Assembly (NCBI RefSeq): GCF_000422465.1
Contig: NZ_KE383842.1
Location: 1,870,710-1,934,709, forward strand
DNA length: 64,000 nt
Direction of reading: 5' to 3'
From: Paenibacillus harenae DSM 16969
Lineage (GTDB): Bacteria; Bacillota; Bacilli; Paenibacillales; Paenibacillaceae
The translations under genes and the position numbers were made by a program. The notes under the pieces are model-generated. The model saw only the letters and a program-made list of their open reading frames with translations, was not told the DNA's origin and made no database searches. Positions 31,135 through 57,205 of this stretch are shown here, piece after piece. Each line of letters opens with the position of its first letter. The stretch's first letter is position 1.

Positions 31135-31325
31135 CTTAAAGCCTCCTCGTGCGATCATGGAATTAGTGTTGCTGCAGGGACAATGCCTGCGAACCGATCT
31201 TATGCCGTAAACGAATCACCTCCTTCTCAAGAATCGCTCTCCTCCCCGCATCCTGATGAGACTTCGCCCGATAGGTTACGGTCTCAGGCAATAGCCTGAA
31301 TACGCTTTCAATCTATTTCATTATT
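31135..31325 (-). promoter_or_regulatory. long structured leader of the SLH gene
   Basis: From a -10-like AATAAT at 31320-31325 the leader would be about 180 nt. It contains the stems TCAGGC/GCCTGA and GAGAC/GTCTC, and a textbook AAGGAGGTGAT (about 31230) with no start codon at working distance. I compared it by eye with the c-di-GMP and c-di-AMP riboswitch consensus sequences and found no match. It could still be a cis-regulatory RNA. Confidence 0.35.
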
Positions 31326-31364
31326 CTCGAATATGGTATTTCCTGGTATGCGTAAAGTTACGAT

Positions 31365-32470
31365 TCAGGTGTGTTTTTTTCGTATTAACCAGAGCAGCGG
31401 TTGACGTAGCGCCGTATTCCTGCGAATCTCCGAATCTGCAGAATCCGGCGTCAAGTTTTGCCACAAGCCGAGAAGACGCTCGTCTTGAAAGGCAAGTCCC
31501 TCAAATAGCATAAAAGACACCTTACCGGCCAGCCATCGAAATGCTCGATATCCGGCAGCCAAGGCCAGCTCGGCTTGTCCATCAGATAAGGAACTAGAAA
31601 TTCGAGGCCTTGGCGGATGCCCCGGCCGTCGCAAGCCGGAAGCGCCATAAATCTTCCTCAGGCGTGGAAAGAAATTGACAGAGGGTTGCCATGTTACAAA
31701 AATGGAGTACCCGTAAGGCTTTGTATGCGCCAGTTCCCGCGGGAAGCTGCCGTTCGGCGCCATCTGCGAAGGGAGCAGCACGGATTGTACCATTCGCGGC
31801 ACAGGGCCGTCACGGATGCATTGCCGGTGAATGACGCGAAAGCTGCCGCCTGCACAAGCCAGCATACCGCATGATTGTTGTTTTCGTCCCGTTCCTTCTT
31901 GCCGTACGGATGTGTAAGCATCCTTTCGAGATAGTCCGCGAACCAGCTCCTGAGCTGCCCGCAATCTCCAGCGGACAACGCCCCGGACGTTTCGATTGCT
32001 TCGACTGCCGCAGGGATGTCGATCAGGTGGAGCGTATCGATGATGCCGACACCGCGCCCGGAGCAGATGCCGGGAATCGCCTGGGCGTAGCGAAGATGCG
32101 GATTCATACGGGTCGACTCATTCAGAAAAAAAGCTCGCAGCAGCGCCGCAGTCTTGTCCGCGTACACCCGCCGGCCCGTAACGGCGTACCCCGCCGCCAG
32201 ATTGGCCGTATGGGTGCGCATCGCGCGCATCGCTTCCCGGTGCGCGGTGAACGCCCCCGGATTTGATTCACCGTCTCTTCTGATATACGGCAGCCCGTCC
32301 GGCGTATCCGGATTCGGCCACCAATAATCGCCGTTTGAATAATAGTCGTGTTTGCCGCCTTCGCTCCTCACGGATAAGAAGGCCGTTATTCCGGTCAGCG
32401 GAGCTAGCAGCGAGCGGTCCGCCTTCGCCTTGATTTCTTGAGGTTCAATCCTCCATGCTCGAACGGCTTT
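31365..32470 (-). pseudogene. alginate-lyase-family (PL) gene with several frameshifts
   Basis: The minus strand encodes recognisable parts of an alginate lyase domain protein in shifting frames. Frame 1 (about 32470-31784) carries GDYWWPNPDTPDGLPY and ends at CREWYN. Frame 2 continues VLLPSQMAPNGSFPREL and KPYGYSIF. Frame 3 gives GRGIRQGLEFLVPYLMDK. Frame 2 returns with FMLFEGLAFQDE and RQPLLWL to the stop at 31365. At least three frame changes and the lack of an N-terminal start codon (in-frame stop at 32471-32473) make it non-functional. The intact enzyme would have cleaved a uronic-acid polysaccharide, matching the neighbouring GH88. The last codons overlap the regulatory element of the SLH gene. 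Confidence 0.88.
31367..31381 (-). promoter_or_regulatory. A-rich activator element F, upstream of the SLH gene
   Basis: Minus strand GAAAAAAACACACCT. It matches the shared 15-bp pattern (A-run, then C/T-ACA-N) found at five other promoters in the window. The ACA lies 45 nt from AATAAT (31320-31325), a -10-like hexamer for the SLH gene. The element overlaps the final codons and stop of the alginate-lyase pseudogene. Confidence 0.55.
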
Positions 32471-32876
32471 TCATCGTCAGCATCGATTGCCGCCCCCTTC
32501 CATTAACATTTATTCACGGCCCGGCCGGATCGGAAAGCGTATGGCTTCAACGGTTTGGTACTGGCGAAAGATCCCGCCGGACTAGTCGCTTCCACCTTGA
32601 GAACCGTGAAGGAAAAAGGGGCTATCCCGCTAGTAGGTAAACCTACTTTTGGGCGCCCCTCTTTTTATTCAAGCGTGATCGGCCTACTTTAACGCGACTT
32701 TTAACCGGACTGAAGAAAGCAGAAGGATACAATGTACATGGTGCAGCAGAAACCTTCCGGATCAGCCCCATTCCAATGTACGAAAAACAACGCGGGAACT
32801 TATATTCAATGATTCTATCGAATAATCGGACGGTATTGGATCTTTTGGGACAGCCCCTCGATTGTCGCGCTAACGT
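32471..32876. other. non-coding stretch with a terminator and an unexplained reading frame
   Basis: The left part holds the bidirectional terminator listed separately. On the plus strand a frame without stops runs from about 32668 to 32928 and reads, for example, GLKKAEGYNVHGAAETFRI and PMYEKQRGNLYSMILSNNR; it lacks an early start codon and overlaps the end of the GH88 gene. Its composition looks protein-like, so it may be a gene remnant, but I cannot name it. A TTTTGGGACAGCCCC segment at about 32843-32857 resembles sequence often found at old insertion-sequence ends. Confidence 0.35.
32613..32666. terminator. bidirectional terminator after the glycosidase operon
   Basis: Outer arms AAAAAGGGGC (32613-32622) and GCGCCCCTCTTTTT (ending 32666) enclose an inner stem GTAGGT/ACCTAC. 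T-runs occur on both strands. It would end transcripts from the GH88-containing operon before they enter the alginate-lyase pseudogene. Confidence 0.7.
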
Positions 32877-34001
32877 TCAAAATACACGGTTCGGCCATCC
32901 GAGCAGCTTGGCTAAGGTCTCCATGTAAAAGTAGTCTCCGTAAATCAGAGAGACATTAACGTTCTGACCGGCCGGCTTATTCCCCGTTCCTTCCCGCAGA
33001 AGACCCTGGTAGTCCGGCTCATCCAGCGTGGCGTAATGCTCCGTCAGCGACTTCAAGATATTCTCGGCCGCTCGGCGGTAAATTCTGCCCTCTTCATTCG
33101 GCAGCAGGCCGGCAATCTCAAGCAGCCCGGAAGCGGCGCAGCCTGCAGCGGAGGTATCCTTCGGCTGGCTCTGCGGATCGGGCGTACGGAAATCCCAATG
33201 AGGAACATGATCCTCCGGCAGGCAGCTGATGAAATAATGGGCCACCCTCTGCGCTGCGCGCAAATAACGTTTATTGCCCGTATACCGGCAGGCAATAGCC
33301 ATGCCGTACAGCGCCCAGGCTTGGCCTCTGCTCCAAGAGGAATATGGCGCATAGCCTTGGCCCCCCAAATATTCGTCGGCCTCCCCGGTTTCCGGATCGA
33401 ACGCCACAATATGATGGACGGAGCCGTCCTCGCGGATGAAATGCTTCAACACCGTGTCTGCATGGGCGCAGGCGATCTGACGGAACCGAGGGTCGGCACT
33501 CGCCTCGGACGCCCAGAATAGCAGAGATAAATTCATCATCGAATCGATGATCGCCCAGCCGGTTTTCTCCTGATTCCAGGCGCGGAGGAAACGTCCGTTC
33601 AAATTGAACCGTCCCGCAAGGAAGTTGGCTGCAGCCAACGCTCTCCTGCGTGCGTCTTCATCGCCCGTCAGCCTATGCTTGATGACTGCCGTTGGCAGAA
33701 ACTGAAAACCAACGTCATGATGGAGGTTGTTGGCCGTGACGAAGCATCGCTCGATACGAGCGTCCCATACCCAAGCCGAGTCGCGATAACCGTCATTGCC
33801 GGTCATTTCATGCAGAATCCATAACATCCCCGGCCAGAAGCCGGAGGTCCACCAGTCTACCCGCATATCGTCATATACGCCGGATGCCGAGACATGCGGA
33901 GATGCATCACCGATATCGCGAATCATCCGGTCCGCCTTGCTTCGAACCTTTTCCCACCACAAGTTCAATTGCTCCCGCTGCAAAATAACGAGATCCGTCA
34001 T
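32877..34001 (-). CDS. GH88-family unsaturated glucuronyl hydrolase
   Basis: A 374-residue alpha6/alpha6-barrel enzyme. The N-terminal [15 protein letters not shown], the acid/base region HHDVGFQF (Asp about 96) and [15 protein letters not shown] (Asp about 153) match the two catalytic-region aspartates of unsaturated glucuronyl hydrolases, and [13 protein letters not shown] is also typical. It has no signal peptide, so it acts in the cytoplasm on imported unsaturated oligosaccharides made by a polysaccharide lyase. It is the last gene of the glycosidase operon; its ATG overlaps the GH95 stop (ATGA). This is the strongest sign that the cell feeds on a lyase-cut, uronic-acid-containing polymer. 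Confidence 0.93.
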
Positions 34002-36325
34002 TCTTTTACCCCCTTTTTTGGCTCGGCGCAGCCGATAATCCGGTATACCTTGCTTGCTTCCAATCGGAACGACACCGGCTCGGAGCCGGATGCTTCAGCG
34101 ATTCGTTCATCGCCTTTGCAGATCACTACAGGAACGTTGCCCCCCCTCAAGCGGCAATCGAAATTCTTCTTCGCAGTGATCCTCGCTTCCTTCAGGAATC
34201 CGTTCTTCCACTCCAGATCGACAGTCAGTCCTCCCCTCGCCCTCAGTCCCGTCGCCCTCCCGCCGCTCCATGCGGATGGCAGCGCCGGAAGCAGGGCTAG
34301 TTCTCCTCCGTGCGACTGCAGCAGCATCTCGGCGATACCTGCAGCCCCGCCGAAGTTGCCGTCGATTTGAAACGGCGGATGCGCGTCGAACAGATTCGGA
34401 TAGGTCGAGCCGTTCAACAGCTGACGGAGATGCAAGTAGGCTTCTTCTCCGTCCTCGAGCCGAGCCCAGAAGTTTATGATCCAGGCCCGGCTCCAGCCGG
34501 TATGTCCTCCTCCGTTGTCCAATCTGCGCGCGATCGTCCGCTTAGCTGCCTCCGCGAGCTCTGGCGTCAATCGCGAATGGATCTGTTCGCCGGGATGAAG
34601 CGCAAACAGCTGCGAGATGTGCCGATGCCCGGAATCCGCTTCATCCCAGTCTTCCAGCCATTCCATAATCTGACCGTGCTTGCCGATCTCGGGGAGCGGC
34701 AGCTTGGCAAGCGCTTCCGCCAGTTCCCGGCGGAAATCTTCCTCCGCTCCTAGCGTTTGCAGCGCCTCGATGCAAGCGCTCCACAGAGCGTAGACGATCT
34801 GGCTGTCCATCGACGGTCCCATGCAGAGAGTGCCGGCTTCGCCGTTCGATCGGATAAAGCGGTTCTCCGGCGAGAGCGACGGTCCGGTCACCAACCGGCC
34901 ATTGCCGTCTTCCGACATATAGTCGAGGAAGAATAAGGCGGCCTCCTTCATTAACGGATATGCGCGGCGCTTCAGAAACTCCTCGTCCAAACCGTACCGG
35001 TAATGCTCCCAAAGATGCATGCACAGCCACGCCGCTCCCATAGGCCATACCGAGGAAGAGAGCAGGATGCCTTCGATATGCGTATTACCCCACAAATTCG
35101 TATTGTGATGGGCGACAAACCCGCGGCAGCCGTACATTTCGCGTGCCGTTACCCTCCCCGAGGGAAGCAAGCTTTCCGCGAGGTCGAAGAGCGGCTCGTG
35201 ACATTCCGGCAGGCTGCCCGCCTCTGCGGGCCAATAATTCATCTGCGTATTGATATTGATCGTATACTTGGATTCCCACGGCGGCGTGAAGCTGGCGTTC
35301 CAGATCCCTTGCAGATTGGCGGCAAGCGTACCCGGCCGCGAGCACGAAAGAAGCAAATAGCGTCCATATTGATAATATAACGAGAACAGGCCCACGTCTT
35401 CCGCCCCTTCCGCCAGTCTCCGCAAGCGTGCGTCGGTCGGCAGCTTAGCTGCATGCTCTTCATCGGCCCGCGCATGTTCGCCGCCGCTTAGGTCAAGCTC
35501 AATCCTTCGGTAGTAAGCCGAATATTCGCTCACATGGCGCTCCCGCAGAGCGCGGTAGGATAACCTGCCCGCGGCATGCAGCTGATCCATGCACGCCCGT
35601 TCCGGGTCCGGATGCCGGAACGACGTATTGGCGGCCAGCAGCAGCGTAACGGCGTCAGCCCCTTCGATCGAGAGGAAATCTCCGATGACTCTCACGGTTC
35701 CCCCTTCCGCAACAGCCATTATTGCGGCGGCGAAGCGTACGCCCCCGGAGCCGCATTGGCCGCTCATCAGAATCATGCGATCACCGGCTGCCGCCGTCCC
35801 TTCGTCGAAGGGACGGCGCATCAGGTTGACACCGACTGTAACCGTGCCGGGCGCGTCAGCTGTCAGACGGACTGCCATGATCTGATCGGCCGCGCTGCTG
35901 AAATACTCCCTCTCATAGGTTGTATGACCGCGGACATAACGGACGCGGGCGACGGCTCCCTCCAGATCCAGCTCTCGTTCGTACGCATCAACGGCGCCAT
36001 CATGCCCTTGCATCCATATTAGCATTTCGCCGAGCGGCTGATAGGGATGAAGATATTTGGGAGCGGAAGTCAGCCCCATTCGCGCCAGATGCTCAGCCTC
36101 GCTCTGCTTGCCTTGCAGCAGCAGCCTGCGAATTTCAGGGAGATAGATCCGCGCATCGGAATTATCACCCTGTATCGAACCGCCGTACCAAATTGAATCC
36201 TCGTTCAACTGGACGGTCTCCTTCGCCACGCCGCCGAATGCCATGCCTCCAAGACGGCCGTTGCCGATGGGCAGCGCTTCCTCCCATCTGCCCGCGGGCG
36301 TATCGTACCACAGCCTCCGTTTCAT
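33998..36325 (-). CDS. GH95-family alpha-L-fucosidase or alpha-L-galactosidase
   Basis: A 775-residue enzyme starting [19 protein letters not shown], the GH95 N-terminus. The expected catalytic-site residues are present: the asparagines of [10 protein letters not shown], the glutamate of [10 protein letters not shown] and the aspartate of FQIDGNFGG. It has no signal peptide, so it is cytoplasmic. The frame is open upstream to 36391 and overlaps the GH31 end, but the ATG at 36325 has GGGGG about 11 nt before it and fits the family start. Substrate would be alpha-linked L-fucose or L-galactose residues on imported oligosaccharides. Confidence 0.93.
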
Positions 36326-36356
36326 CCTCGCATGACCCCCTTCATAGGCACTCGGC

Positions 36357-38486
36357 TTATTCGTCATGGTAACCGAGCCCCATACGGGCAAAGCTCCACT
36401 TCACGCTGCCGTATGAAGCCGGAAGAGGCGCCGGGCCCGATAATTCGCCTTTAAACCCTCCGTCCTCCGTCCTCGCCACGACCGCTCTCCACCAGCCGCA
36501 TACGCCGCATTCATGCTCCAAGGTTATTCCGTCGTCGTCGTACAGCCGGCATTCCCCTTCAGCGGTACCGAAATGCACCAATTCGAGCGGAGCCTGTTCG
36601 CCCGGCCGAAGGGCGTGCGGAAGCGCGGATGTCATTGGAATGACCGCCCCGTCCCGCACGAATACCGGAATCGTCTCGATGCCTGAACGGACCTTGACGA
36701 CACCGCCTCCTTCATAAAGCTCCCCCGTCTCGAAGCCGATCCATGAGCCGGATGGCAGCAAGACCTCCCGTTCCTTCTCTCCCTCGACGAGCGGAGCCAC
36801 GAGCAGCGAATCCCCAATCATGTATTGATCATCCCATTGCGGGACGTTTCGCTTCCCGTACGCCCCTTCCGACGTATTAATCGTCTGCGCCTCTAATCGC
36901 ATATTCTCGGCGCGCGCGAATTCCTCCGGCGTGACGGCGAACGGCATTGCCCGGAAGGGAGGCGTTCCCTCTTCCAGGTAACGGGCGAAGGCCGTGTACA
37001 AATACGGAAGCAAGCGCATTCGCAGCTTGATGTAACGTCGGATGATCGGTTCCGCATCAGGGAACGTCCAAGGCTTCGTCCCGTCTCCCCAGGCGTTCAG
37101 CATGGCAAGAGGAGAGAAGCAGACCGTTTGCATTCTTCTGACCCAATCCTCGGCGCTGCGAGCCCGGCGCACCTCCGGCGACCACAGAAGTCCGCCGAAG
37201 GAGGAATTGCACAGCGCCCTTATGAATTGCTTGTGATCGTACAGATCCGAATAAAGGACGTATGGCAGCGAAGATGCCGCCGCGTTTGACGCTCGCACAA
37301 GTCCGAAGGTTCTCCGGTTTGCTGAACGGTACATGTCGTTCGTCATTTTCTGGAACATCAGGCCGTACAACTGCCTCATCTGTTCGCCGTCCAGACCGGA
37401 CGGGAAGCTCGCATGCTCGGGGAACATCCAAGCGTTGTTCGTCAATTCGCTGCCGTCGCATTCGTCCAGCTTGTAACCGGATACGCCGATTGCGACATGC
37501 TTCTCTTGATGCTGTTTCACATACAGCTCGCGGGCTTCAGGCAAAGAATAGTCGGGCGCCAGCCCGCCCCATACCGAATAATTGCCGGAAAGCGGCTTAA
37601 GCGCGGCATAAAGCCCGCTCTCCGGCGACACGTACGGATGCTCCCACAGATTGACGCGGAACCCGTTGTCCGCAAGCTCCCGCACGAATCGCTCGGGATC
37701 GGGGAAGCGCTCCGGATCCCATTCGTACGTCACGGGGTAGCTGCTGCTGTGCCAGCCGGGTTCGAGCCCGATCACGTCGCAAGGATAATCCCTGCGGCGG
37801 AATTCCTTCGCCTCCGCGAGCGTTTCCTCCGCGCTGAACAAGGCCGGTACGCGGTGCCAGAAGCCGAGTCCCCACTTCGGCGGCAGAGTGCCTCCGCCGC
37901 AGAAGAGATTGTAGCGGCATACCGCATCGCCAAGCGCCGGACCGCCAAAGATATAGACGTCGGCGCCTTCCTCCGGCAGGCGGATCTCCGCCCGCGCCGA
38001 GGGAACGGTCGCCCGCCATCCGGCGTCCCGGTTGCGGTCCTTCGCATCCTCTTTGCCCGTCCCCTCCAAGTGAACGGACGAACCGAGATGCATCGTGAGC
38101 GCGCGCGCCGTATCGATGAGAACGCCGTAGCCGCGGTCACTGACGAAGAACGGAACAGGAGCGTGCGTCTCGCCGGTATCCTGCTTTGGATCGCTGTTCA
38201 CGCGGAGATAGCGGGTACGTCCGCGCTGGTTCGTCCGCATGAACTGCAGTCCGGTCCCATACAGCTTTTCGTTAGCCGCTAACGGCAGCACAAGCATGCG
38301 TCGCCCTCCTCCCGCCGCCTCCATGTGTACGCTATCCCGCTCGAATGGCGGATCAACCTTCCCCAACCGTTTCAGGGCATCCAACTTCGGTTCGGCTTCG
38401 ATCAAGGTTAGAGGCGTAAGCATCCGCGGATCTCCGATTCTGGCGTGCCATACTCCCGGCGCCGCTTCCGTCCATGTCATTGTCAT
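36357..38486 (-). CDS. GH31-family alpha-glycosidase
   Basis: A protein of about 709 residues with the GH31 barrel pattern. [16 protein letters not shown] opens the barrel, [11 protein letters not shown] carries the nucleophile aspartate and [12 protein letters not shown] corresponds to the later active-site strand. A C-terminal beta domain with [18 protein letters not shown] follows. I placed the start at 38486, where GGAGG lies 8 nt upstream; an ATG at 38510 overlaps the previous stop (ATGA) and is also possible. The natural substrate is unclear, since GH31 covers alpha-glucosidases, alpha-xylosidases and alpha-galactosidases. Confidence 0.92.
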
Positions 38487-38506
38487 TGACTGTCCCTCCG
38501 TTATGT

Positions 38507-39484
38507 TCATCGCAAATCCATCCGGAGAACCGGCAATTCGACAGGCATCCTTCGGCCCGATTCGCCGGACAAATTCGCATGGTAGACAAGCGCCTGCGTC
38601 AGCAGGTAATCCTTGCCGCTAGATTCCGGCTCACGGCCCGTATCGAGCGACGTCAGGAACTCGGTCAAAGTATCGGATTCGTTCACGCCGGCGAAGCCGG
38701 TAATTATCCGGGCATCCCCTTCCCCGTAAACCCGGATTTCCTTGCCTGTCAGCAGCAAAGCGCCGTGCGTGCCCTCGATCCGCCAATCGCCGCTCCATGA
38801 CGTTTCCGGTCCTCTCGACGCGATCGAAGCCGAATAACCGGCGATCATCCCGCCGTCCATCTCCAATATCGCATTTGCGTTTATCACCGCTCCTTCCTCT
38901 TCCCAGGCGCCGATCGGGTTGTACAGCCTCGCCTGAACCGCGATCCCCTCCCGTCCGGTCAAATACCGCAGCATATCGAAGTGGTGAACGCCGATATCGT
39001 CCAGAATTCGGACGGCGTACTTGCGGGTTACCTGATGATAACGGCGGAATTGGATGTCGATCGCCGAGATCGAGCCGACGGCTCCATCGTCCAGCAATTG
39101 CTTCATCTTGCGAACATAAGGGAAACGCCGATAATTTTCAGCGATCATAAACGGAATCTTCTCCCTCTCCGCTCTTGTAACGATCTCGATCGATTCCGAA
39201 TAATCGAATGCGATCGGTTTCTCGCAGAGCACGGGAAGTCTCCGGTCGAATGCCGCGTGATTTACCCGCGTATGCGCGTCCGGCGAAGTCACGTTGACAA
39301 GGAAGTCGGCCTCCTCGTTCGCGAGCGCCTCGTCCAGTGAAGTGTAGAACGGATAGGGAGCCCCGTCCATCTTGGCCTTCATGACCGGATCCGTCTCGAC
39401 GACGGCCGAGAGCAGCCCTCTGTCTCTCAAACGTTTGTACCAGCTGTAGCCTGCGCTCCCGAGGCCAACCAATATTGCCCTCAT
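38507..39484 (-). CDS. Gfo/Idh/MocA-family sugar dehydrogenase
   Basis: A 325-residue protein with an N-terminal NAD-binding fold (ILVGLGSAGYSWYKRLRD), the family lysine in LCEKPIAFDYSES and the C-terminal catalytic half with DDIGVHHFDMLRYLTG. It would oxidise or reduce a sugar or sugar acid released by the neighbouring glycosidases, or act as a redox glycosidase partner. GGAGA lies 8 nt before the ATG and the gene is 3 nt from the GH43-like gene. Confidence 0.92.
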   Translation of the reverse strand: MRAILVGLGSAGYSWYKRLRDRGLLSAVVETDPVMKAKMDGAPYPFYTSLDEALANEEADFLVNVTSPDAHTRVNHAAFDRRLPVLCEKPIAFDYSESIEIVTRAEREKIPFMIAENYRRFPYVRKMKQLLDDGAVGSISAIDIQFRRYHQVTRKYAVRILDDIGVHHFDMLRYLTGREGIAVQARLYNPIGAWEEEGAVINANAILEMDGGMIAGYSASIASRGPETSWSGDWRIEGTHGALLLTGKEIRVYGEGDARIITGFAGVNESDTLTEFLTSLDTGREPESSGKDYLLTQALVYHANLSGESGRRMPVELPVLRMDLR

Positions 39485-39487
39485 CGC

Positions 39488-40528
39488 TCAGTCTCCTTCC
39501 GTTTGCTTTAGCGGAATAACCATATTCCACGTATGTTTGGCATGCCGGAATCCCCCCGGGCCGTCGGCCGTCGCCGCGAACAGATGCGTCGGCTTCCCGT
39601 TCCGGAACAGCAGGAACGGTCTTTCAAGACTTCCCATCGTCTGAACGGTCCCGTCGTCCCAGCGAACGCTTCGCGAGTATGCTTTCGGATCATCGGACAG
39701 CTCCCAACGGATGCCGTCCCTTGAGACGGCCTGAATGCCTCCGTGCTTCTCCCCGCCTAACGTCCCGTCCATATCTTTGGCGATCAGAGCATACCCTTCC
39801 TCCGTCCGCCAAATAAACGGATCTTCAATATGGAACCGCCCGGGCGGGAAAACCGGTTCCTCCGACATAACATTGTAGGCTCCGCTCCAATGCTCCGCCG
39901 CAGCGGCTCCGATCGTCATCGGGCCGTAATCGTTGCCTTCGTAACGGCGGGCCTTGTATAGAAGCAGCACGGAGCCGTCCTCCCGTACGCAAGGGGCCGG
40001 GTTCGACGTCAGATAACTGTCGAATCGGCCGGGGCGGACCGGCAGCAGGGGAGCGTCGCTCCTCTTCCACGGGCCGAAGACGCTGTCTGCGACCGCGAGT
40101 CCTACCCGTTTGTTCGAGCGGGCGACGATGCAGCGCGGATCCCCAAGACCGAAGCCGTCGCCGGGGACCGGCTCCGTTAGCGGATGAGTCGAGCCCATAT
40201 AATAGAGTAAGTAGACGCCGTTATGCTTGACGATATGCGGATTATGAGTGCTGCGTCCATCCCAGTATCCCGCTCCCCTGGCCGGAAGCACGACCTCTTG
40301 GAAGGTATATGGCCCCTCGGGGGTGTCGGAAACGGCTCTCACGATCTCCGAAGACGACAGCCAGCCCGGATGCATGGGCAGGCTCTTCGGCCATCTGGAG
40401 GCGAACATATGGAATCGGCCATCTTCTCCTTGGACGACGGAGCCGCACCAGATCCAATAGCCTTCCATCCGGAAGCCGCCGTTTCTCGGCGCGGGCAGCA
40501 TCCTGCCGGCTAAGCCGTTTACGTGCAT
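39488..40528 (-). CDS. GH43/GH117-like five-bladed beta-propeller glycosidase
   Basis: A 346-residue cytoplasmic protein with repeated propeller blades. Recognisable segments are WIWCGSVVQGEDGRFHMF, STHNPHIVKHNGVYLLYY, TSNPAPCVREDGSVLL and HIEDPFIWRTEEGYALIA. This is the arabinanase/levansucrase/invertase-type clan. Exact family and substrate are not certain. It overlaps the upstream amidohydrolase-like gene by 10 nt; AAGGG lies 11 nt before the ATG. Confidence 0.85.
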   Translation of the reverse strand: MHVNGLAGRMLPAPRNGGFRMEGYWIWCGSVVQGEDGRFHMFASRWPKSLPMHPGWLSSSEIVRAVSDTPEGPYTFQEVVLPARGAGYWDGRSTHNPHIVKHNGVYLLYYMGSTHPLTEPVPGDGFGLGDPRCIVARSNKRVGLAVADSVFGPWKRSDAPLLPVRPGRFDSYLTSNPAPCVREDGSVLLLYKARRYEGNDYGPMTIGAAAAEHWSGAYNVMSEEPVFPPGRFHIEDPFIWRTEEGYALIAKDMDGTLGGEKHGGIQAVSRDGIRWELSDDPKAYSRSVRWDDGTVQTMGSLERPFLLFRNGKPTHLFAATADGPGGFRHAKHTWNMVIPLKQTEGD

Positions 40529-41745
40529 GGCGTTTCATCCCTTCGTTGTCCGGCCTGTCTTCCATAGCGCTTTGCCGCGCTGCCATACAACCATTGCTCT
40601 GCGGTATGCAGAGCCGTCTCCCGGTCGATCCAGCCGGATTCGAGCCTCTCCCATAAAAACTCGGCGGCCAGCTTCTTCACGAGCAAAATCTTGCCGTAAC
40701 TCCATTCCATGCAGCGGGCATCCGATACGACGATCGAGCTCTTGCTCGCGGCGAGCGCTTCGAGCCTGTACTGCATGCTGTCCCGGTAGGTGCTCGCGCG
40801 GAAGTTGAACCACCACATGCCGCCGATATGGACATTCGGGAAGTTCCAAGCGGCCTGTACGGCATCGAGGTTATTCAGTTCCGAAGCCAGCACAAGCTCG
40901 AATTCGCAGCGGTAATTCTCGAACAAAGCCGTTAGCTTCAGAATCCGTTCCGTGTCATTCGCCGGAAACGCGGTCCCGCACCATGAACGCTCAACGCCGA
41001 GGAACAGCTGTACGAGCATGCCGTTCCTCTCCGCCGCAGCGCATACGGCATGCAGCAGCTCCATCATGACGTCGTCGCGTCCGCTTCCTTGACCGATCGG
41101 CTTGCGGATATGAGCGCTCGATTCGTACCTGGGCAGCGTCGTCATGATGCCGGGCACGCCGGAAGCGCCATATCCGTCGAACAGACTTTCGATCTCATCA
41201 TGAACGGCCTTGAAATCGCCGGCCGGATCCGCCGATTGGACGACGCTGTCGACCCATTGGCCGAGTTTTCCGTCGATTCGGGGGATAAGCACGGCGTTCT
41301 CGCGCATGCGATGAAAGGCGGAATGCTCCGGATGGTTCACTACGAACCGTCTGATGTTCAAACGGTCAGCCGTCCGCTGCGCCCAGTCAGCATCGGCGAA
41401 AGATCGCTTGACGGCGGTATCCGCCTCGCTGATGGATGCTGCATCCCGTATCTCGATGCCGTACAGCTCCCGCATGATCGAAGTGAACGCCCAGTTCATC
41501 AGCGTGCCTCTCGTTGCCCGGTACGCTTCCAGGAAGGCGGCGGTACGCGCCTCTTCCGGAAGCTTATCCGCATCAGCGGGATAGCCGCCGGCCTGCAGCT
41601 CACGGAACAGCCAGAAGTAGTGCGCGATCTCCCAGAAATCGCGCGCGCACAATCTTTCGCCTACCAGATGAGTATGGGTATCGAACACCGGCAGCGCCAT
41701 GACGCAATCGATGAATTCAGCTTTCCCGTTGCCAATCAAGTTCAT
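40519..41745 (-). CDS. uronate-isomerase-like amidohydrolase
   Basis: A 408-residue protein with an N-terminal metal-binding FDTHTHLVG and a C-terminal half containing HIGGMWWFNFRAST and SDARCMEWSYGK, which resembles glucuronate isomerase (UxaC) and related amidohydrolases. It is shorter than typical UxaC (about 470). With GH88 releasing unsaturated uronic acid in the same operon, a role in uronate handling is plausible but not shown. AAGGAGATG lies just before the ATG, which overlaps the stop of the GH36 gene by 4 nt. Confidence 0.75.
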   Translation of the reverse strand: MNLIGNGKAEFIDCVMALPVFDTHTHLVGERLCARDFWEIAHYFWLFRELQAGGYPADADKLPEEARTAAFLEAYRATRGTLMNWAFTSIMRELYGIEIRDAASISEADTAVKRSFADADWAQRTADRLNIRRFVVNHPEHSAFHRMRENAVLIPRIDGKLGQWVDSVVQSADPAGDFKAVHDEIESLFDGYGASGVPGIMTTLPRYESSAHIRKPIGQGSGRDDVMMELLHAVCAAAERNGMLVQLFLGVERSWCGTAFPANDTERILKLTALFENYRCEFELVLASELNNLDAVQAAWNFPNVHIGGMWWFNFRASTYRDSMQYRLEALAASKSSIVVSDARCMEWSYGKILLVKKLAAEFLWERLESGWIDRETALHTAEQWLYGSAAKRYGRQAGQRRDETPCT

Positions 41746-46183: not shown

Positions 46184-46184
46184 C

Positions 46185-49258: not shown

Positions 49259-49272
49259 GATGGAGGTAAAAA

Positions 49273-51117: not shown

Positions 51118-51175
51118 GACAATCTGAGGAAGATCCCCTCACTAGTGGTGCTTACCGTTACAACCTGCAATCTTC

Positions 51176-52774
51176 TTACTCGATGTCTATCCGAACTGCG
51201 CCCTGCTTATTGTTCCAGCGTTCCGTGGCCTCCTTGATAATCTCGTCGCCGCCCTTGCTCTTGTATTCTTCGATCACCTTGGGCCAATCGGAGATCGGTT
51301 CCTTGCCGTAGATCATCTTGACCATATGGTCGATGATCAGCTTCGGTCCGACGTCCGGCGAAGGCGCCGCCAAATCAGGGTACTTGCTGAAGGAGCTCAG
51401 TTCCGGATAGAAGCCGATGCCCGGCAGACCTTCCTGCGACAATACGTCGTCGAATGCGGCCAATGTTGCTTTGCCGTCTTCGTTAAGATCCAGTCTCAGC
51501 TTATTGTACGTGGCGTCATGAACAGCCCAGATCGTGCCGCTCCGCCAGCCTTCTTCCTCTTGCTGCTCCTTCGTCACAGGGAATTTATAGGTGACAAGGC
51601 CGCTTGCGTCCTTCGTGTAGGTATCGCCCTCGATGCCGAACGTGAAAAATTCCTCGGCTTCCGGCGTAACCATCCAGTCAAAGAATTTCACGATTTCGGC
51701 CGCTCTCGCTTCATCAACATTCTTATTGATATAGAACGTGCGGACAACCGGCGAATAGTAGAAGTAACCGCCCTTGCCTTCGGGCCCCTTCGGCGAAGGA
51801 ATGATGTCGATCTGCGCATCCGGCACGGCGTTCCTAACGTTCGTCCGGTAGCCCGGCAGTCCGGATGCGTTCTGCGACCATATGCCCGGCTTGCCGGCAT
51901 CTATGCTCTTCGTGAAATCAGTCGATGAGATCGTGGCGAATTCCTTCGGAATAAGTCCTTCCTCATACATCGTTTTGTACGTTTCCAGCGCCTTCTGCAT
52001 GTTGTCGGTATCGAAGAATTTAGGCACTACTTGACCGTCGGCCAGTTCGAACTGATCCTTGTAAGGCAGTACGTCAAAGGCTCCGAGGATGATATCCGCA
52101 TACTTGAAGTTCTCCCGCATCTGGTAAGGCGTCTCGACGCCAAGCTCCTTGAAAGCGCGAAGCACGTTCAAGAATTCATCGACCGTCGTCGGTGCCTGCA
52201 GCCCGGTCTTTTCGAGAAGGTCCGTACGGATGTAGGTAGCGCGTCGCGACGGGCTCTTCAGAAACTCCGGAATGCCGTAGATCTTGCCTTCGTAAGATAC
52301 GGTCTCCCATGCGGCCTTCGGAATGAGCTTCATCAGATTCGGCGCGTGCTCTTTGAGCAAATCGTCCAGAGGCATAAAGATGCCGCTCTCGACCGAGCCC
52401 GACATGGACTTGCTGCCGGGACCGCCTATGCTGCCGACCACGTCCGGAATGTCGTTGCTCGCGAACATGACGCCGAACTTCGCATCCTCCATCACCTTAA
52501 TGTCCAGATCGGTGCCCGTCAATTCCTCCAGCTTCAAAACCCATTTGTCCTTGTTTAAATCCGGCACCCGTGTATGGTAGCCCGAGCTTACCGTCGTCGG
52601 CAGCAGGAGCGAGAATTCCACCGGCTCCTTCTTGCCGCTATCCGGCTGCTGCTCCCCGCCGTTATCAGGCTTCTGATTCGCCGGCTTCTGATCTTCCGGC
52701 TTGTTGCCAGCGCAGCCCGCCATCAGGCCCATAGCTAGTACCAATGACAGTCCCATGCCGATCCATTTCTTCAT
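51176..52774 (-). CDS. LplA-type ABC substrate-binding lipoprotein
   Basis: A 532-residue lipoprotein: MKKWIGMGLSLVLAMGLM, lipobox MAGC, a Lys/Gln/Pro-rich linker, then a large family-1 solute-binding domain of the LplA/YtcQ type. It would bind oligosaccharides outside the cell for the LplBC-type permeases encoded upstream. The ATG at 52774 gives the signal peptide; the open frame to 52825 does not. It has its own -10 (TATAAT, 52833-52838) and activator element E, so it can be expressed apart from the permeases. No ATPase is encoded; a shared MsmX-type ATPase is expected elsewhere. Confidence 0.92.
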   Translation of the reverse strand: MKKWIGMGLSLVLAMGLMAGCAGNKPEDQKPANQKPDNGGEQQPDSGKKEPVEFSLLLPTTVSSGYHTRVPDLNKDKWVLKLEELTGTDLDIKVMEDAKFGVMFASNDIPDVVGSIGGPGSKSMSGSVESGIFMPLDDLLKEHAPNLMKLIPKAAWETVSYEGKIYGIPEFLKSPSRRATYIRTDLLEKTGLQAPTTVDEFLNVLRAFKELGVETPYQMRENFKYADIILGAFDVLPYKDQFELADGQVVPKFFDTDNMQKALETYKTMYEEGLIPKEFATISSTDFTKSIDAGKPGIWSQNASGLPGYRTNVRNAVPDAQIDIIPSPKGPEGKGGYFYYSPVVRTFYINKNVDEARAAEIVKFFDWMVTPEAEEFFTFGIEGDTYTKDASGLVTYKFPVTKEQQEEEGWRSGTIWAVHDATYNKLRLDLNEDGKATLAAFDDVLSQEGLPGIGFYPELSSFSKYPDLAAPSPDVGPKLIIDHMVKMIYGKEPISDWPKVIEEYKSKGGDEIIKEATERWNNKQGAVRIDIE

Positions 52775-52877
52775 ACGACAACCCCGCTTCCCTTTGATTG
52801 GTTTGTAAGCGCATTCATGCTGCATGAGGCTATTATAAGAATGTTCTTGTATTTCCTGTATGTCTTAATTTAAGCCA

Positions 52878-52892
52878 GCCTGTATTTTTCTA
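52878..52892 (-). promoter_or_regulatory. A-rich activator element E, upstream of the binding-protein gene
   Basis: Minus strand TAGAAAAATACAGGC. ACA lies 43 nt before a perfect TATAAT (52833-52838), which has no good -35, as expected for an activated promoter. Confidence 0.55.
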
Positions 52893-52928
52893 CGGTGCGA
52901 TTGTTGGGCCGGCAATCGGTCGTCTATA

Positions 52929-53798
52929 TTACGACTTGATCGAGCCGACCAGCATGCCTTGTATAAAATGCTTCTGCAGGAACGGATAGACCAGCATGAT
53001 CGGAAGCGTCGCGACGACGATGACCGCCATCTTGATGCCCTCCGGCGAGAGCATGACGAGCAGCTCGGATGTCACGTCCGATTGCCCGTATTGATCGGTA
53101 AAAACAATCTCCCGCAAGCGGACTTGAAGCGGAATCCAGCGCCGGTCGCTAATATAGAATACCGCCTCGGCGTACCGGTTCCAATGCGCGACCGCGTAGA
53201 TGATCCCCATCGTCGCCATCGCAGGCTTCGAGAGCGGCAGCACGATTTTCCAGAAGATCCGAAACTCCCCGCAGCCGTCCATCTTCGCCGAATCGATCAG
53301 CTCGCCCGGCAAATTCATGAAGAATGAGCGCATAACAAACAAATTGAACGCGCTGATCGCCATCGGCAGCATTAATGCCCACAACGTATCGAGCAAGGCT
53401 AATTGCTTCACCAATAGATAGTTCGGAATAAGCGGCGCGCTGAAGACCAAGGTGAACAAAACAAATAGTAACACGGTTTTGCGGTATACATATTCCGGCC
53501 GGGAAAGCGGATATGCGAGCATCGCCGTCATGAGCAGGTTGATGAGCGTACCAAATACGGTAATCGTTGCGCTGTTGCGGAAACCGACCCAGATCGAAGG
53601 ATCCTGAAGAATCAGCTTATAGCTGCCGAGCGTAAAACCGACCGGCCAGAAGCTGACCTGCCCCGCGTTAATGGCGACCGAGTTGCTGAGCGATTGTGCA
53701 ATGATGTGAATCAGCGGCAGCACCATGCTCAGGCCAATGGCGCCGAGAAAGACGATGTTGCATATGTTGAATATTTTCTGGCCTCTTGTCATAATCAT
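52929..53798 (-). CDS. LplC-type carbohydrate ABC permease
   Basis: A permease of about 289 residues with six membrane helices and the coupling motif ELIDSAKMDGCGEFRIFWKIVLP. The C-terminus PFLQKHFIQGMLVGSIKS is typical of LplC/YtcP proteins. Three starts are possible (GTG 53810, ATG 53798, ATG 53792); I chose 53798 because GGGTGG lies 8 nt upstream. It follows the LplB-type gene by about 30 nt. Confidence 0.93.
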   Translation of the reverse strand: MIMTRGQKIFNICNIVFLGAIGLSMVLPLIHIIAQSLSNSVAINAGQVSFWPVGFTLGSYKLILQDPSIWVGFRNSATITVFGTLINLLMTAMLAYPLSRPEYVYRKTVLLFVLFTLVFSAPLIPNYLLVKQLALLDTLWALMLPMAISAFNLFVMRSFFMNLPGELIDSAKMDGCGEFRIFWKIVLPLSKPAMATMGIIYAVAHWNRYAEAVFYISDRRWIPLQVRLREIVFTDQYGQSDVTSELLVMLSPEGIKMAVIVVATLPIMLVYPFLQKHFIQGMLVGSIKS

Positions 53799-53828
53799 AA
53801 CGATTTCCACCCCGTTTCACCAATAGCC

Positions 53829-54782
53829 TTAGTACAACCCGTCACCGGTTACCTTCTTGCTGAATTTATTGCCGATCATGATAAGCGCAAGGCCTACGAT
53901 CGATTTGAACAAGCCGATGGCGGTCGTGTAGCTGTATTGACGGTCGACGAGACCCGCACGGTACACGTACGTATCGATGATCTCCCCGTTCTCGCTGTTA
54001 AGCGGATTGAGGAACACGAACACGCGCTCAAAGCCGAAATCCAGGAAGTTGCCTATCTGCAGAAGGAACAGGATGACGATAGTCGGCAAAATGCAGGGAA
54101 CGGTAATGGAGGCTACCTGCCGGAACCGGCTTGCGCCGTCCATCTGCGCCGCCTCGTACAAGTCGGGATTGATTCCCGCGATCGCGGCCAGATAGATGAT
54201 CGTTCCCCAGCCGCTATCCTTCCAGATGCCCGAACCGATCAGGATGGAGCGGATATAGGAATTTTCCCCGAGAAAGTAGATCGGTTCGATACCGAACATC
54301 GACAGCAAGTGGTTGACGATTCCCGTAGATGGAGACAGCACGCCGACTACGACCCCGCCGACGATAACCCAAGAGAGGAAGTGCGGCATATAGACGACCG
54401 TCTGAACGATTCGTTTATAGGCCATGATCCTCAGCTCATTGAGCAAGAGCGCCAGAATGATTGGCACCGGGAACGCAAAGCAGAGATCGTAAAGGCCGAT
54501 TAGAATCGTGTTTTTCAATATCGGAAGAAATTCCGCATACTCCAACATTCGCTTGAATTGATCGAGCCCGACCCACGAACTGCCTCGGATGCCTTTGAAA
54601 ATGTTGTAGTCTTGGAACGCTATGACCGATCCGAACATCGGAATATACCGGAATATTAGGAAAAAGATGATGCCCGGAATCGACAGCACGTATAGCGGCC
54701 AATGCTTGCGCATGAATTTTATTTTGTGGCCCGGCGTCGTAAATTGGTACATCATCCGGTCGGAAGTCTCGACCTTAGCCAT
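53829..54782 (-). CDS. LplB-type carbohydrate ABC permease
   Basis: A 317-residue permease with the LplB/YteP pattern: WPLYVLSIPGIIFFLIFRY in helix 1, FGSVIAFQDYNIFKGI, VYMPHFLSWVIVGGVVVG and coupling motif DLYEAAQMDGASRFRQVASI. It forms a heterodimer with the LplC-type protein for oligosaccharide uptake. AAGGGGAAG lies 5 nt before the ATG. Element B and a -10-like TAAGAT lie upstream. Confidence 0.94.
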   Translation of the reverse strand: MAKVETSDRMMYQFTTPGHKIKFMRKHWPLYVLSIPGIIFFLIFRYIPMFGSVIAFQDYNIFKGIRGSSWVGLDQFKRMLEYAEFLPILKNTILIGLYDLCFAFPVPIILALLLNELRIMAYKRIVQTVVYMPHFLSWVIVGGVVVGVLSPSTGIVNHLLSMFGIEPIYFLGENSYIRSILIGSGIWKDSGWGTIIYLAAIAGINPDLYEAAQMDGASRFRQVASITVPCILPTIVILFLLQIGNFLDFGFERVFVFLNPLNSENGEIIDTYVYRAGLVDRQYSYTTAIGLFKSIVGLALIMIGNKFSKKVTGDGLY

Positions 54783-54872
54783 GCTCTCTTCCCCTTTCTT
54801 CGTTTGATTGTTGTCTTGTCCTTATCATCTTAACCAGGGAATAAGCAGGAGGACATGGCGTATTTTAGAGGG

Positions 54873-54887
54873 AGCTGTGTTTTTTTA
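54873..54887 (-). promoter_or_regulatory. A-rich activator element B, upstream of the permease genes
   Basis: Minus strand TAAAAAAACACAGCT, beginning at the stop codon of the upstream galactosidase. ACA lies 44 nt before TAAGAT (54827-54832). Confidence 0.55.
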
Positions 54888-56690
54888 TGATTGCTCGATT
54901 TGGATTATGGCGATCCCTGACGGAGGAATCTGCAGCTTATGCAGGCCTGGCGCGACAAAGATCCGCTGTTCGCTAACGACGTCGCCGGAGCAATTCTTAA
55001 TCGTGACGCCTGCCTCGCCGAGCGCGTCTATCGTCTCTGCGTAAATCCCTTCCTTCAACCGGCCGTTTACAATCATTATCTCACGGACCGTTCCTGTCCC
55101 TGATTCCGCGGCTAACGGTACGATCGCGTCGTGGTAGGTGGCGATAATCGCCTTATGTCCCTTGGATGCGCGAACGAACGGATAGAGCAGCTCCGGACTG
55201 CACGGCTCGAGTCTGCCGTCTTGCAGCACATCATGGTGCTCGTTGCAAAATCCGAGCCAAAAGCGCAGCATCCGCAGATGCTCGCCAGGCAGCGATTGAA
55301 GAGGCATTGAGATCTGCGGCACTGCGAACAGCAGGTTAATCAGCTGCAGCGCTGCGCTCTCAACGGGCTCTTCCGGGTGCCACATGACCATATCGGCATG
55401 CGCGGCGGTATCGCCGCACAACTGCCGGATGTCCAGTGTGCGGACACGGTTCTGGATGCCGTCGTACGGACAGTCGGATGCCCGGAACATATTCCCGTAT
55501 TTGCGCATTGCTGGCCCAATATAAGGCTGGCGGAACTCGATCATAATATCGGGCTTCAGTGCCCTCAACCTGCTGATCGAGTCGGTTAACAGCTGATCTA
55601 CGGCAGCGGGAATCGACTCGCGGTCACGGCCGTCCGCTTCCGGAGGAAGCTGCATTTCGGGTGAATAAAAGGCATCGATGAAGTCGAGCTTGAAGCCGTC
55701 AAGATCCCATGCCTTCAAGGCCTTCTCATAGGTGTTAATGATATACTCCCGCACGTCAGGATACCGGGGATCGAGCACGCCTGCCTTGCTGTTCTCGTTA
55801 AAGCGGACGAGCTTACTCTTGAAGCGGTCCCATGCCTTGCTTTGAATGCCGACATAAGGGACAGCGTACCAGAGCACGAACTTCATGCCGAGCGTATGAA
55901 CCGCGCGGACATGGCGCGCCATATCGGGAAACTTGCTCTCGCAAGGTTCCCAGTCGCCCGTATACGCATACCCTCGGCGGTTATCTTCGGTCTGCCAGCC
56001 GTCGTCGACGATGACGGCGCCCATTCCGAGGGAACGGGCAAGCTCGCATTCCGCTTCTACGCTCTCCGCCGTTACGTTCTGATGCATGCTGTACCAGGTG
56101 GAGTACATAGGGCGTTTCGCCGCATCCGGCACGTTGGCCGGCTCGTAAGCCGGCATCCCGCTCCACCAGCGCTGCACGTTCCGCAAACTCTCATGATACG
56201 GAACATCCCTTGTGTCCACGAGCAGGGTCGCCTCATAGGACCGGAGCGGCGCCGACGCTTCCTTGAACAGCTGAACGCTGCACCCGAACTCGGCCGTCTC
56301 CTCGCGAATTCCCCCCGAGTAGTGACTCGTATGCAGCGCGTCCGAGAAGGCGAACGTCATCTTGTTACGTCCGTTCGTATTGAATAGCGAATAGACCGGC
56401 GCGGACGTCGCGGCATTGGCGCGAAGGCCGCGCATCCAATCGGCCTTGAAGCTTTTGTTCCGGTCTTGAGCGGGATGCCAGCTCGCCTGAATGTCATCGG
56501 CCGGATGAACCCAGCGCAGCGTCAGAACGGGCGGCATCCGTTCCTGTTCCGACATCAGGACGAGACGGATGAGATCGATGCCTTCCTCTTTGCGCTCTGC
56601 GGTAAGATAGATTTGGAACCCTTGCTTCTCCTCTTCGCAGCGTTCACTCTCCAACGTAAAACAATGCTTATTCGTTGATAAGGTGATCAA
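54885..56690 (-). CDS. GH36-type alpha-galactosidase (melibiase superfamily)
   Basis: A 601-residue cytoplasmic glycosidase with a beta-sandwich N-terminal part and a catalytic barrel. GMGAVIVDDGWQTEDNRRG opens the substrate site, the nucleophile lies in DLDGFKLDFIDAFYSP and the acid/base aspartate in MFRASDCPYDGIQ. It is shorter than the classic GH36 enzyme found broken at 41742-43881 and only distantly similar, so it belongs to another GH36 subgroup. It follows the cupin gene by 12 nt and could partly replace the lost galactosidase. Confidence 0.9.
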   Translation of the reverse strand: MITLSTNKHCFTLESERCEEEKQGFQIYLTAERKEEGIDLIRLVLMSEQERMPPVLTLRWVHPADDIQASWHPAQDRNKSFKADWMRGLRANAATSAPVYSLFNTNGRNKMTFAFSDALHTSHYSGGIREETAEFGCSVQLFKEASAPLRSYEATLLVDTRDVPYHESLRNVQRWWSGMPAYEPANVPDAAKRPMYSTWYSMHQNVTAESVEAECELARSLGMGAVIVDDGWQTEDNRRGYAYTGDWEPCESKFPDMARHVRAVHTLGMKFVLWYAVPYVGIQSKAWDRFKSKLVRFNENSKAGVLDPRYPDVREYIINTYEKALKAWDLDGFKLDFIDAFYSPEMQLPPEADGRDRESIPAAVDQLLTDSISRLRALKPDIMIEFRQPYIGPAMRKYGNMFRASDCPYDGIQNRVRTLDIRQLCGDTAAHADMVMWHPEEPVESAALQLINLLFAVPQISMPLQSLPGEHLRMLRFWLGFCNEHHDVLQDGRLEPCSPELLYPFVRASKGHKAIIATYHDAIVPLAAESGTGTVREIMIVNGRLKEGIYAETIDALGEAGVTIKNCSGDVVSEQRIFVAPGLHKLQIPPSGIAIIQIEQS

Positions 56691-56702
56691 GCCGCATTCC
56701 CC

Positions 56703-57068
56703 CTAAGTTTGATTATGATGGCGGTTCGGACCGGCATGTAACCAGAGCGTAATAATCGGATCCTGCTCGCTTGAACAAAGATGATGATCCTCTTCCGGCT
56801 CGACGATCACGATATCGCCTGCCTCTACAGGATGATGCTTCCCGTTGATCTCCATCGTCCCGTTTCCTTGCAGGATAATGAACGCTTCCCGATCGCGATG
56901 AACATGATAATCTTTGCCGTCCGGCCCGTCGTTCGTATGGCTCCGGTCGCCACGTCCGGCAAACGCGAGTCCGCCGGAAGAGAGAAAAGCGCCGGGAAGC
57001 AGGTCACCGAGCACATGGTTCTTCTGGTCTACACGCAATGGCAGCTCACATAATCGGATGCGGATCAT
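56703..57068 (-). CDS. cupin-domain protein
   Basis: A 121-residue single cupin. Motif 1 is DYHVHRDREAFIILQGNG, with metal-ligand histidines and glutamate, and motif 2 is VEAGDIVIVEPEEDHHL. Single-cupin proteins beside sugar genes are often sugar isomerases, lyase-product binders or sensors; no specific role can be read. It is the first gene of a two-gene unit with the GH36-type enzyme. Confidence 0.88.
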   Translation of the reverse strand: MIRIRLCELPLRVDQKNHVLGDLLPGAFLSSGGLAFAGRGDRSHTNDGPDGKDYHVHRDREAFIILQGNGTMEINGKHHPVEAGDIVIVEPEEDHHLCSSEQDPIITLWLHAGPNRHHNQT

Positions 57069-57190
57069 GACGCTTCACCCTCCCGGAATTCGCGCAAGTT
57101 CGTGTATTTCATGCCCTTCCTCCTTGTTCCAATGATTTCACCCCATTATAAATAGCTGCTATAATCTCCGGTATGGCAAAACTTTGGTTG

Positions 57191-57205
57191 GGTTGTCGTT
57201 TTTTA
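57191..57205 (-). promoter_or_regulatory. A-rich activator element C, upstream of the cupin-galactosidase unit
   Basis: Minus strand TAAAAAACGACAACC. ACA lies 44 nt before a perfect TATAAT (57145-57150). Confidence 0.55.

Follow-up and report, generated by a model that had tools for sequence, protein, structure and literature searches.

Introduction

The AraC protein of Escherichia coli binds at araI1-I2 to two direct half-sites about 21 bp apart, of which the downstream one overlaps the -35 box. In this class II layout, the subunits of a dimer sit on direct half-sites two helical turns apart, with the downstream subunit at -35. AraC is activated by a ligand rather than by phosphorylation, and it also loops DNA. 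Here, we describe six promoters in a 64,000-nucleotide stretch of the genome of Paenibacillus harenae DSM 16969 (the window; contig NZ_KE383842.1) that share a bipartite element. Very probably, the six elements are operators through which an AraC-type response regulator encoded in the window at 46185-47204 activates one polysaccharide-utilisation regulon. The element resembles the E. coli site in its layout of direct half-sites about 21 bp apart at -35 and differs in that its proposed binder is a response regulator.

In Caldicellulosiruptor bescii, tandem-repeat sites lie upstream of promoter elements for each of the four one-component AraC-type regulators and for three of the five two-component ones; these elements are tied to mapped starts, and the regulators are taken as activators (PMC8579813). 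Common to C. bescii and the present locus are AraC-domain two-component regulators in sugar-use loci and tandem-repeat operators upstream of the promoter. C. bescii belongs to another bacterial group, and the likeness of the operators is one of described layout. The XydS/XydR system of Clostridium cellulolyticum also has an AraC-type response regulator, which activates a hemicellulase cluster and one unlinked gene (PMC3572039). XydR has 532 residues and is not autoregulated, and the part of the report used here lists shared sequences without an operator consensus (PMC3572039). The regulator in the window, in contrast, has 339 residues, and with it go a clear bipartite consensus and a site upstream of the operon that encodes it. 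CuaD/CuaS/CuaR of Ruminiclostridium cellulolyticum is alike in tying a YesN/AraC-type regulator, a kinase and a solute-binding protein to an ATP-binding cassette (ABC) importer, although CuaR, with 538 residues, is likewise longer than the regulator described here (PMC10384115). The pneumococcal systems of YesN and RR07, annotated as YesN/YesMN two-component systems, are linked to carbohydrate or glycan use and have candidate operator motifs (PMC11034029). Those candidates (CTWWWWWWAG for RR07; AATTC and C/T stretches for YesN) differ by eye from the element described here (PMC11034029).

No description of the present operator was found in the open literature searched, subscription papers and regulon databases lying outside that search. 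AraC-type activator sites of this sort are known; what is newly seen, and well supported, is an unusually clean operator matched to one regulator.

Results

The element had originally been predicted from the window as a 15-bp A-rich sequence at a fixed distance from the -10 box. All six elements and all six -10-like hexamers were found where this original prediction had placed them (Table 1). The operator, however, is bipartite and about 38 bp long. Its second block, which had been missed, carries CAT (CTA at the two-component promoter) 21-22 nt after ACA. On the minus strand the whole element reads ATCGTAAAAAAACACA and, about 21 bp further along, C..TAA....CCAT, with a -10 box after another 25 bp and without a -35 box. 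The claimed regularity of the spacing held, with 42-44 nt measured between ACA and -10 in place of 43-45 nt. The distance from the first base of ACA to the start of the -10 box is 46 nt at the cupin, permease and binding-protein promoters, 45 nt at the two-component promoter, and 47 nt at the GH36 and SLH promoters. CAT stands exactly 25 nt from the -10 box in five of the six sites. That the promoters have no obvious -35 box, as also predicted, was borne out when the six sites were compared by hand: the hexamers at a 17-bp spacer (TACCGG, TGTCCT, TACAGG, TATCGC, TGTTAA and TACCAG) have at most two of six matches to TTGACA. Part of the second block occupies this position.

The element is conserved beside orthologues of the regulator. 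A regulator scan of genome contigs gave 56 loci; the analysis covered the 52 from Paenibacillaceae (L031-L082, 53-87% identity) and set aside four remote loci (L083-L086). Three models of the element were built: R1 from the six window sites, R2 from all 54 sites including these six, and R3, a sequence-only covariance model, from the 48 sites of relatives. Scanning relatives with a matrix had been suggested as a check on the original prediction. R1 gave 109 matches at E≤1 in the 52 loci (1.07 Mb), with at least one match in 48 of them; 106 matches lie on the strand of the regulator. Ninety-nine of the 109 have a conserved gene of the cluster no more than 330 nt downstream (permB 36, solute-binding protein 35, GFO 10, response regulator 7, u39488 6, u40519 4, GH36 1). 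At one locus (L067), a back-to-back pair of sites faces divergent solute-binding-protein and u39488 genes.

As a guard against circularity, sites were also picked by the A-run/ACA block alone, which gave 110 sites on the plus strand and 16 on the minus strand. In the 57 non-redundant plus-strand sites, counts of a CCAT-like word peak at +21 to +23, with 30, and those of a -10 word at +45 to +48, with 44. The 13 non-redundant minus-strand sites give at most two counts at every offset; those at the peak offsets come from L036, L067 (the true divergent site) and L069 (a true minus-strand site). This histogram replaced a two-block position weight matrix (PWM), which at low thresholds gave many minus-strand matches. 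At threshold 12, the matrix had 169 plus and 78 minus matches against means of 61 and 64 (maxima 98 and 90) for 30 column-permuted matrices. At threshold 14, wrong gaps still gave 85-107 plus matches, compared with 137 for the right gap, because of the dominance of block 1.

The 109 R1 matches were reduced to the 48 relatives' sites by collapsing near-copies and by removing three matches whose ACA anchor was unclear and any that were cut off by the end of a locus; the 48 were aligned with the six window sites (alignment A3). Across the 54 sites, the CAT-like word follows ACA by 21-23 nt and precedes the -10 box by 25 nt in 42. The sequences between the blocks look unrelated among the aligned sites. 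Self-similarity of the alignment profile peaks at a shift of 21 bp at all four widths tried (10 to 16), and the two blocks, about CGTAAAAAAACACA and C--AAGTTT--CCA, are thus read as the copies of a 21-bp direct repeat. If transcription is assumed to start 7 nt after the -10 box, the element would extend from about -71 to -35, and the second copy of the repeat stands in place of the -35 box. At the level of sequence, direct half-sites about 21 bp apart, a downstream half-site at -35 with a fixed distance to the -10 box and, in the six window sites, a poor -35 box are all present; an activator site of the AraC class II type would be laid out in this way.

The original prediction had called the constant spacing hard to explain by chance. 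The A-run/ACA block alone is not striking: the regular expression has eight matches in the window, where Markov-resampled sequence gives 2.6 ± 1.7, and two of the eight (32879, plus; 23707, minus) lie outside the six promoters. The whole arrangement does exceed chance. With leave-one-out PWMs from five sites, the left-out site ranks 6, 6, 6, 6, 7 and 7 among 127,820 positions of the window, in a ranking that counts the five training sites as well. A relatives-only PWM (48 sites, none from the window) returns the six as the top six window positions, with 50.7 to 24.8 bits; the next position, off-register copies aside, has 13.3 bits.

Scanning the whole 6.97-Mb genome, also suggested at the outset, places the six sites on top and within 26 kb. 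In these scans, the best 150 of 579-1111 first-look candidates (1111 for R3) were scored. The window's six are the best six in the genome with R3, with E-values of 1.3e-9 for the permease site (best in genome), 1.1e-7 for GH36, 3.3e-7 for the binding protein, 1.0e-6 for the two-component operon and 1.2e-5 for the cupin. With R2, the E-value is 3.5e-4 for the SLH site, and the best scored place outside the window has 0.36. Neither R2 nor R3 gave a strong site outside the cluster among the candidates scored. A loose pattern (AAAAANACA, gap, CAT) has 24 places in the genome and its reversed control 17, so matches at this level are mostly chance.

The proposed binder combines a receiver and an AraC helix-turn-helix region (residues 257-334) in one protein; its receiver residue, by counting, is Asp54. 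An adjacent gene encodes a sensor of the His_kinase family with an extracytoplasmic domain. As in AraC/YesN-type regulons, its predicted targets nearby are genes for glycosidases and for the import of sugars by ABC transporters, and the neighborhood is conserved in relatives. The second recognition region, YDDYPHFTKTFKK, is almost invariant across 51 intact orthologues. The remaining orthologous gene (L080:10001-11013) is frameshifted, and its locus has no R1 match. A second response regulator, 43-44% identical, stands in tandem beside the orthologue in L057-L063 and L066 (about 12884-13929; 12612-13631 in L061), and in L079 (15014-17808) the tandem second regulator, again 43-44% identical, has its own kinase and permeases. 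Such pairs are natural material for comparing operator specificity.

Presence of the motif follows presence of the regulator. Among 51 same-genus genomes, an R2 match (E≤0.01) and a regulator relative (E≤1e-60) occur together in 13, the motif only in 2, the regulator only in 3 and neither in 33 (Fisher p=1.1e-7); 36 of 45 R2 matches lie within 30 kb of a regulator relative. This test is partly circular, as R2 contains sites from G000 (the window's own genome), G001, G004, G028, G030 and G040. Without these six genomes the counts are 7, 2, 3 and 33 (p=8.2e-5), with 8 of 14 matches near the regulator; with G043 removed too, p is 2.9e-4. Where the regulators are only 43-50% identical, 12 of 12 loci have an R2 match (E≤1) in front of a gene for a permease or a binding protein, seven of these loci having been picked for a known nearby match and five for the regulator alone. 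The best E-values in the latter five are 0.034 (L147), 7.9e-4 (L152), 5.7e-5 (L155), 0.017 (L160) and 0.014 (L161).

Table 1. Predicted operator-promoters, their target genes, the proposed regulatory pair and look-alike elements. Positions are those of the window unless a contig is given; half-site 1 is the upstream half-site.
Feature	Position	Strand	Details
Cupin and melibiase-like glycosidase (GHmel) operator-promoter	57145..57209	-	half-site 1 57194-57209; ACA 57194-57196; CAT 57173-57175; -10 TATAAT 57145-57150
Permease-pair operator-promoter	54827..54891	-	half-site 1 54876-54891; CAT 54855-54857; -10 TAAGAT 54827-54832
Solute-binding-protein operator-promoter	52832..52896	-	half-site 1 52881-52896; CAT 52860-52862; -10 TATAAT 52832-52837
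Two-component operon operator-promoter (putatively autoregulatory)	47296..47359	-	half-site 1 47344-47359; CTA replaces CAT 47323-47325; -10 CATGAT 47296-47301
GH36...GH88 operon operator-promoter	44038..44103	-	half-site 1 44088-44103; CAT 44066-44068; -10 TATGAT 44038-44043
SLH-protein operator-promoter (weakest of six)	31320..31385	-	half-site 1 31370-31385; CAT 31348-31350; -10 AATAAT 31320-31325
AraC-type response regulator, 339 residues (proposed binder)	46185..47204	-	Pfam Response_reg 3-115, HTH_18 257-334, HTH_AraC
Cognate sensor kinase, adjacent gene	44351..46279	-	dCache_1, HAMP, His_kinase, HATPase_c; H-box QINPHF
Cupin and melibiase-like glycosidase (predicted targets)	54885..57068	-	cupin 56703-57068; glycosidase 54885-56690; Pfam
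Two ABC permeases (predicted targets)	52929..54782	-	open reading frames 52929-53810, 53829-54782; Pfam BPD_transp_1
Solute-binding lipoprotein (predicted target)	51176..52825	-	without Pfam match; beside permeases in many relatives
Glycosidase operon (predicted target)	32877..43881	-	GH36 (two open reading frames), u40519, u39488, GFO/IDH oxidoreductase, GH31, GH95, GH88; Pfam, NCBIfam
SLH surface protein, 2208 residues (predicted target)	24532..31158	-	Pfam; lyase-like domain residues ~290-520 (about 29584-30291)
lysA element of the same genome	G000:C1, just upstream of 740075-741394 (L266)		look-alike of operator
Paralogous two-component/ABC units	L206 (G000:C2:157001-169000); L211 (G000:C3:532001-544000)		weak element versions

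Membership of the glycosidase operon was inferred from spacing and strand. Of its products, u39488 has no match in Pfam or NCBIfam, and the sole match of u40519 is a sub-cut-off one to the NCBIfam glucuronate isomerase. The GH36 alpha-galactosidase gene is split in the window (41742-43881, minus strand) into open reading frames 42334-43881 and 41742-42371 in different frames. The frame is continuous across the split point in four relatives (L031, L032, L033 and L036), so the window copy carries a deletion with a frame change, or an assembly error. For the binding protein, ATG 52774 is the likelier start compared with ATG 52825 from the open-reading-frame finder, because a lipoprotein-like signal and the Shine-Dalgarno-like GGGAAGCGGGG upstream go with the former, and 52825 falls at about the predicted transcription start. 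An Rfam scan of the window found no family.

The SLH protein contains a domain, marked by the signature DRQR.E...HIFQLK...RPKWGIYR (alignment A4), that has no Pfam match. Its predicted model is of middling confidence, with a predicted local distance difference test score (pLDDT) of 63 and a predicted template-modelling score (pTM) of 0.70. In VIA-align, the model resembles jelly-roll polysaccharide lyases, with Z 15.2 to heparin lyase I (root-mean-square deviation 2.5, 176 aligned), 13.9 to a PL7 alginate lyase and 13.4 to a glucuronan lyase; Foldseek, in contrast, gives its top lyases low template-modelling scores of about 0.35-0.42. The domain also occurs in secreted proteins of L056, L068, L165, L166 and L169, whose genes are preceded by the operator; for the protein of L165, phmmer found no match among PDB sequences at E≤0.1. 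Next to the SLH gene in the window, an alginate-lyase-like gene (31400-32450, minus strand; Pfam PF05426 over 31694-32371) is broken by frame changes, and the SLH-gene operator lies at its 3' edge. Because of the lyase-like domain, GH88 and this alginate-lyase-like remnant, the substrate would seem to be a uronic-acid-containing polysaccharide, whose side chains GH36, GH95 and GH31 would trim.

In relatives, the reach of the element is wider. In G043, the regulator and the gene for an SLH-protein orthologue (60% identity) lie on different contigs, and the latter gene has a site in front; another site, 8.7 kb from the regulator, precedes a gene for a secreted lyase-domain protein. Sites on other contigs of G030 and G040 (L165, L166) precede genes for secreted proteins sharing a domain with SLH residues ~297-518 (25-28% identity, the range also of the G043 lyase-domain protein). 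Other two-component genes lie within a few kb of the G030 and G040 sites, and another regulator may act there. In G243, a site on another contig precedes a binding-protein and u40519 unit. The regulon of the 46185-47204 regulator, originally proposed as local, is local in its own genome among the places scored; unlinked sites exist in other genomes.

Discussion

In silico, the analysis shows where the sites lie, how they are laid out, that they are conserved and that they are linked to the regulator, and these results support the proposed regulon. That the six promoters arose by chance or from copied promoter DNA is practically negligible as an explanation: the A-run/ACA block is indeed common, with eight matches where 2.6 are expected, but the leave-one-out and relatives-only scans recover the full arrangement, and copies would not leave the inter-block sequences looking unrelated. 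RNA polymerase might itself bind the element, as an A-tract UP element or through curvature combined with an unusual -35, and the upstream A-runs and the nearly fixed distance to the -10 box would suit such a polymerase-bound feature. We consider this very unlikely. Columns whose commonest base is not A, the -10 box included, hold 21.9 of the 45.3 bits of the alignment, the 21-bp repeat pattern goes against it, and a general promoter feature would be genome-wide, whereas the best six places found in 6.97 Mb lie within 26 kb.

There is equally little to favor the regulator binding as a repressor or in its unphosphorylated form. A downstream half-site that replaces the -35 box and lies upstream of the -10 box argues against a repressor, as do the C. 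bescii AraC-type tandem-repeat sites upstream of promoters, whose regulators are taken as activators (PMC8579813). Binding by a different AraC-type protein, or by several paralogues jointly, is improbable. Several findings would suit such a binder: AraC-type regulators are numerous in this genome, paralogous two-component/ABC units have weak versions of the element in front, a look-alike upstream of lysA occurs also in genomes without the regulator, and the unlinked lyase-gene sites L165 and L166 have other two-component genes nearby. Against this, the element tracks the regulator across the genus, matches adjoin the regulator even at about 45% identity, and in the window's own genome no scored place outside the cluster approaches the five strong sites.

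Several observations weigh against the assignment of the six sites to this regulator. The SLH site is weak under the independent model R3 (E 0.31), four of the 52 orthologue loci (L071, L077, L078 and L080) have no R1 match, and conservation among near relatives is partly inherited and not independent. In a family scan of 295 genomes, with 17 candidates scored per genome and stricter filters, an R2 match (E≤1e-3) was found in 25 genomes and a regulator relative (E≤1e-60) in 54. Only 14 of these 54 have an R2 match, which in at least three of the 14 (G068, G138 and G243) is not beside the regulator. Conversely, 11 of the 25 genomes with a match have no regulator relative at that threshold. Inspection of six of these 11 (the others are G100, G193, G227, G235 and G278) gave five lysA promoters (G065, G120, G152, G159 and G292) and, in G020, a sequence like a terminator hairpin; further lysA-promoter matches are in G063 and G138. 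Within the genus, 16 of 54 R2 matches (E≤0.05) have no regulator relative in the surrounding 30 kb on either side. They precede the SLH orthologue (G043:C75) and lyase-like genes (G040:C56:49205, G030:C36), lysA (G026, and by coordinates G044), binding proteins belonging to other systems (G024, G012:C125, G015), a sensor kinase (G023) and other open reading frames (G006, G034); at the rest no open reading frame was found or the match is a hairpin (G003, G020 twice, G040:C56:85026, G030:C31). The lysA and paralogue look-alikes indicate that the motif class is not exclusive to the 46185-47204 regulator.

The lysA look-alike reads [AG]CAAA...ATCCAT, followed by 25-26 nt from CAT to TATACT, the same geometry as that of the operator. 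Of the genomes examined, all 19 from the genus, among them that of the window, have this look-alike, as does one of 11 from other families. The gene was assigned as lysA by NCBIfam TIGR01048 for the copy in L163 (502 bits, cut-off 298) and by homology to this copy for the others; the further upstream regions used are L265-L287, L151, L156-L158, L162, L163 and L183. No lysine riboswitch was found at the Rfam gathering threshold in four lysA-bearing loci tried.

Just below the six in the window's own genome come R3 matches with E 0.75-1.06, which lie in front of permease, binding-protein and kinase genes of the paralogous two-component/ABC units. One of these sites is a near-perfect 21-bp repeat, CTTAAAAAAACGCATT / CTTAAAAAGACTCATT. 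Forty 12-kb windows placed at other AraC-type regulators of this genome contain four R2 matches, against none in 40 control windows; the test is not independent, as the four are among six sub-threshold places known before the windows were chosen. The regulator windows were drawn from at least roughly 100 listed places, and the controls on a grid from contigs C1-C4 only. Taken post hoc, four of the six sub-threshold places fall in neighborhoods of listed AraC-type or receiver genes, which make up 17.6% of the genome (binomial P 0.011). Three of the four matches look like proper promoters (of a solute-binding protein, a kinase and a permease), unlike the fourth (L205). Regular-expression versions gave 0 versus 0 matches in regulator and control windows (strict), 7 versus 0, mostly poor (mid), and 8 versus 3 ("DR only"), and this evidence for a shared grammar is not convincing. 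The paralogue data of this genome are suggestive, not proof, of a family-wide grammar. We put forward only tentatively, and with some doubt, that A-run/ACA, 21 bp, CCAT, 25 bp and a -10 box without a -35 box form a grammar shared by AraC-type response regulators of Paenibacillaceae, in which small base changes would set specificity and another member of the class would control the core gene lysA genus-wide.

For the regulator in the window, we infer binding to the predicted operators, phosphorylation and activation as follows. The Cache-domain kinase would sense an extracytoplasmic sugar, perhaps together with the binding protein, and would phosphorylate the regulator at Asp54. One phosphorylated dimer would occupy both halves of the 21-bp repeat on a single face of the DNA, and its downstream subunit, at the -35 position, would recruit RNA polymerase to a promoter with a -10 box alone (class II activation). 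Expression of the two-component operon itself, of the genes for the ABC importer and the surface SLH protein, of the cupin-glycosidase pair and of the glycosidase operon would thereby rise together.

Conclusion

AraC-type response regulators are numerous in the genome of P. harenae, and operators of this class have seldom been defined. The present analysis pairs one such regulator with a precise predicted operator, a promoter geometry and a list of targets, all of which recur in relatives. The larger interest lies in the possible family-wide grammar and in the lysA element. If the weak versions before paralogous units are real, the grammar would assign regulons to many AraC-type systems from sequence; were it shared as proposed, the regulons of many such systems could be read in each genome.

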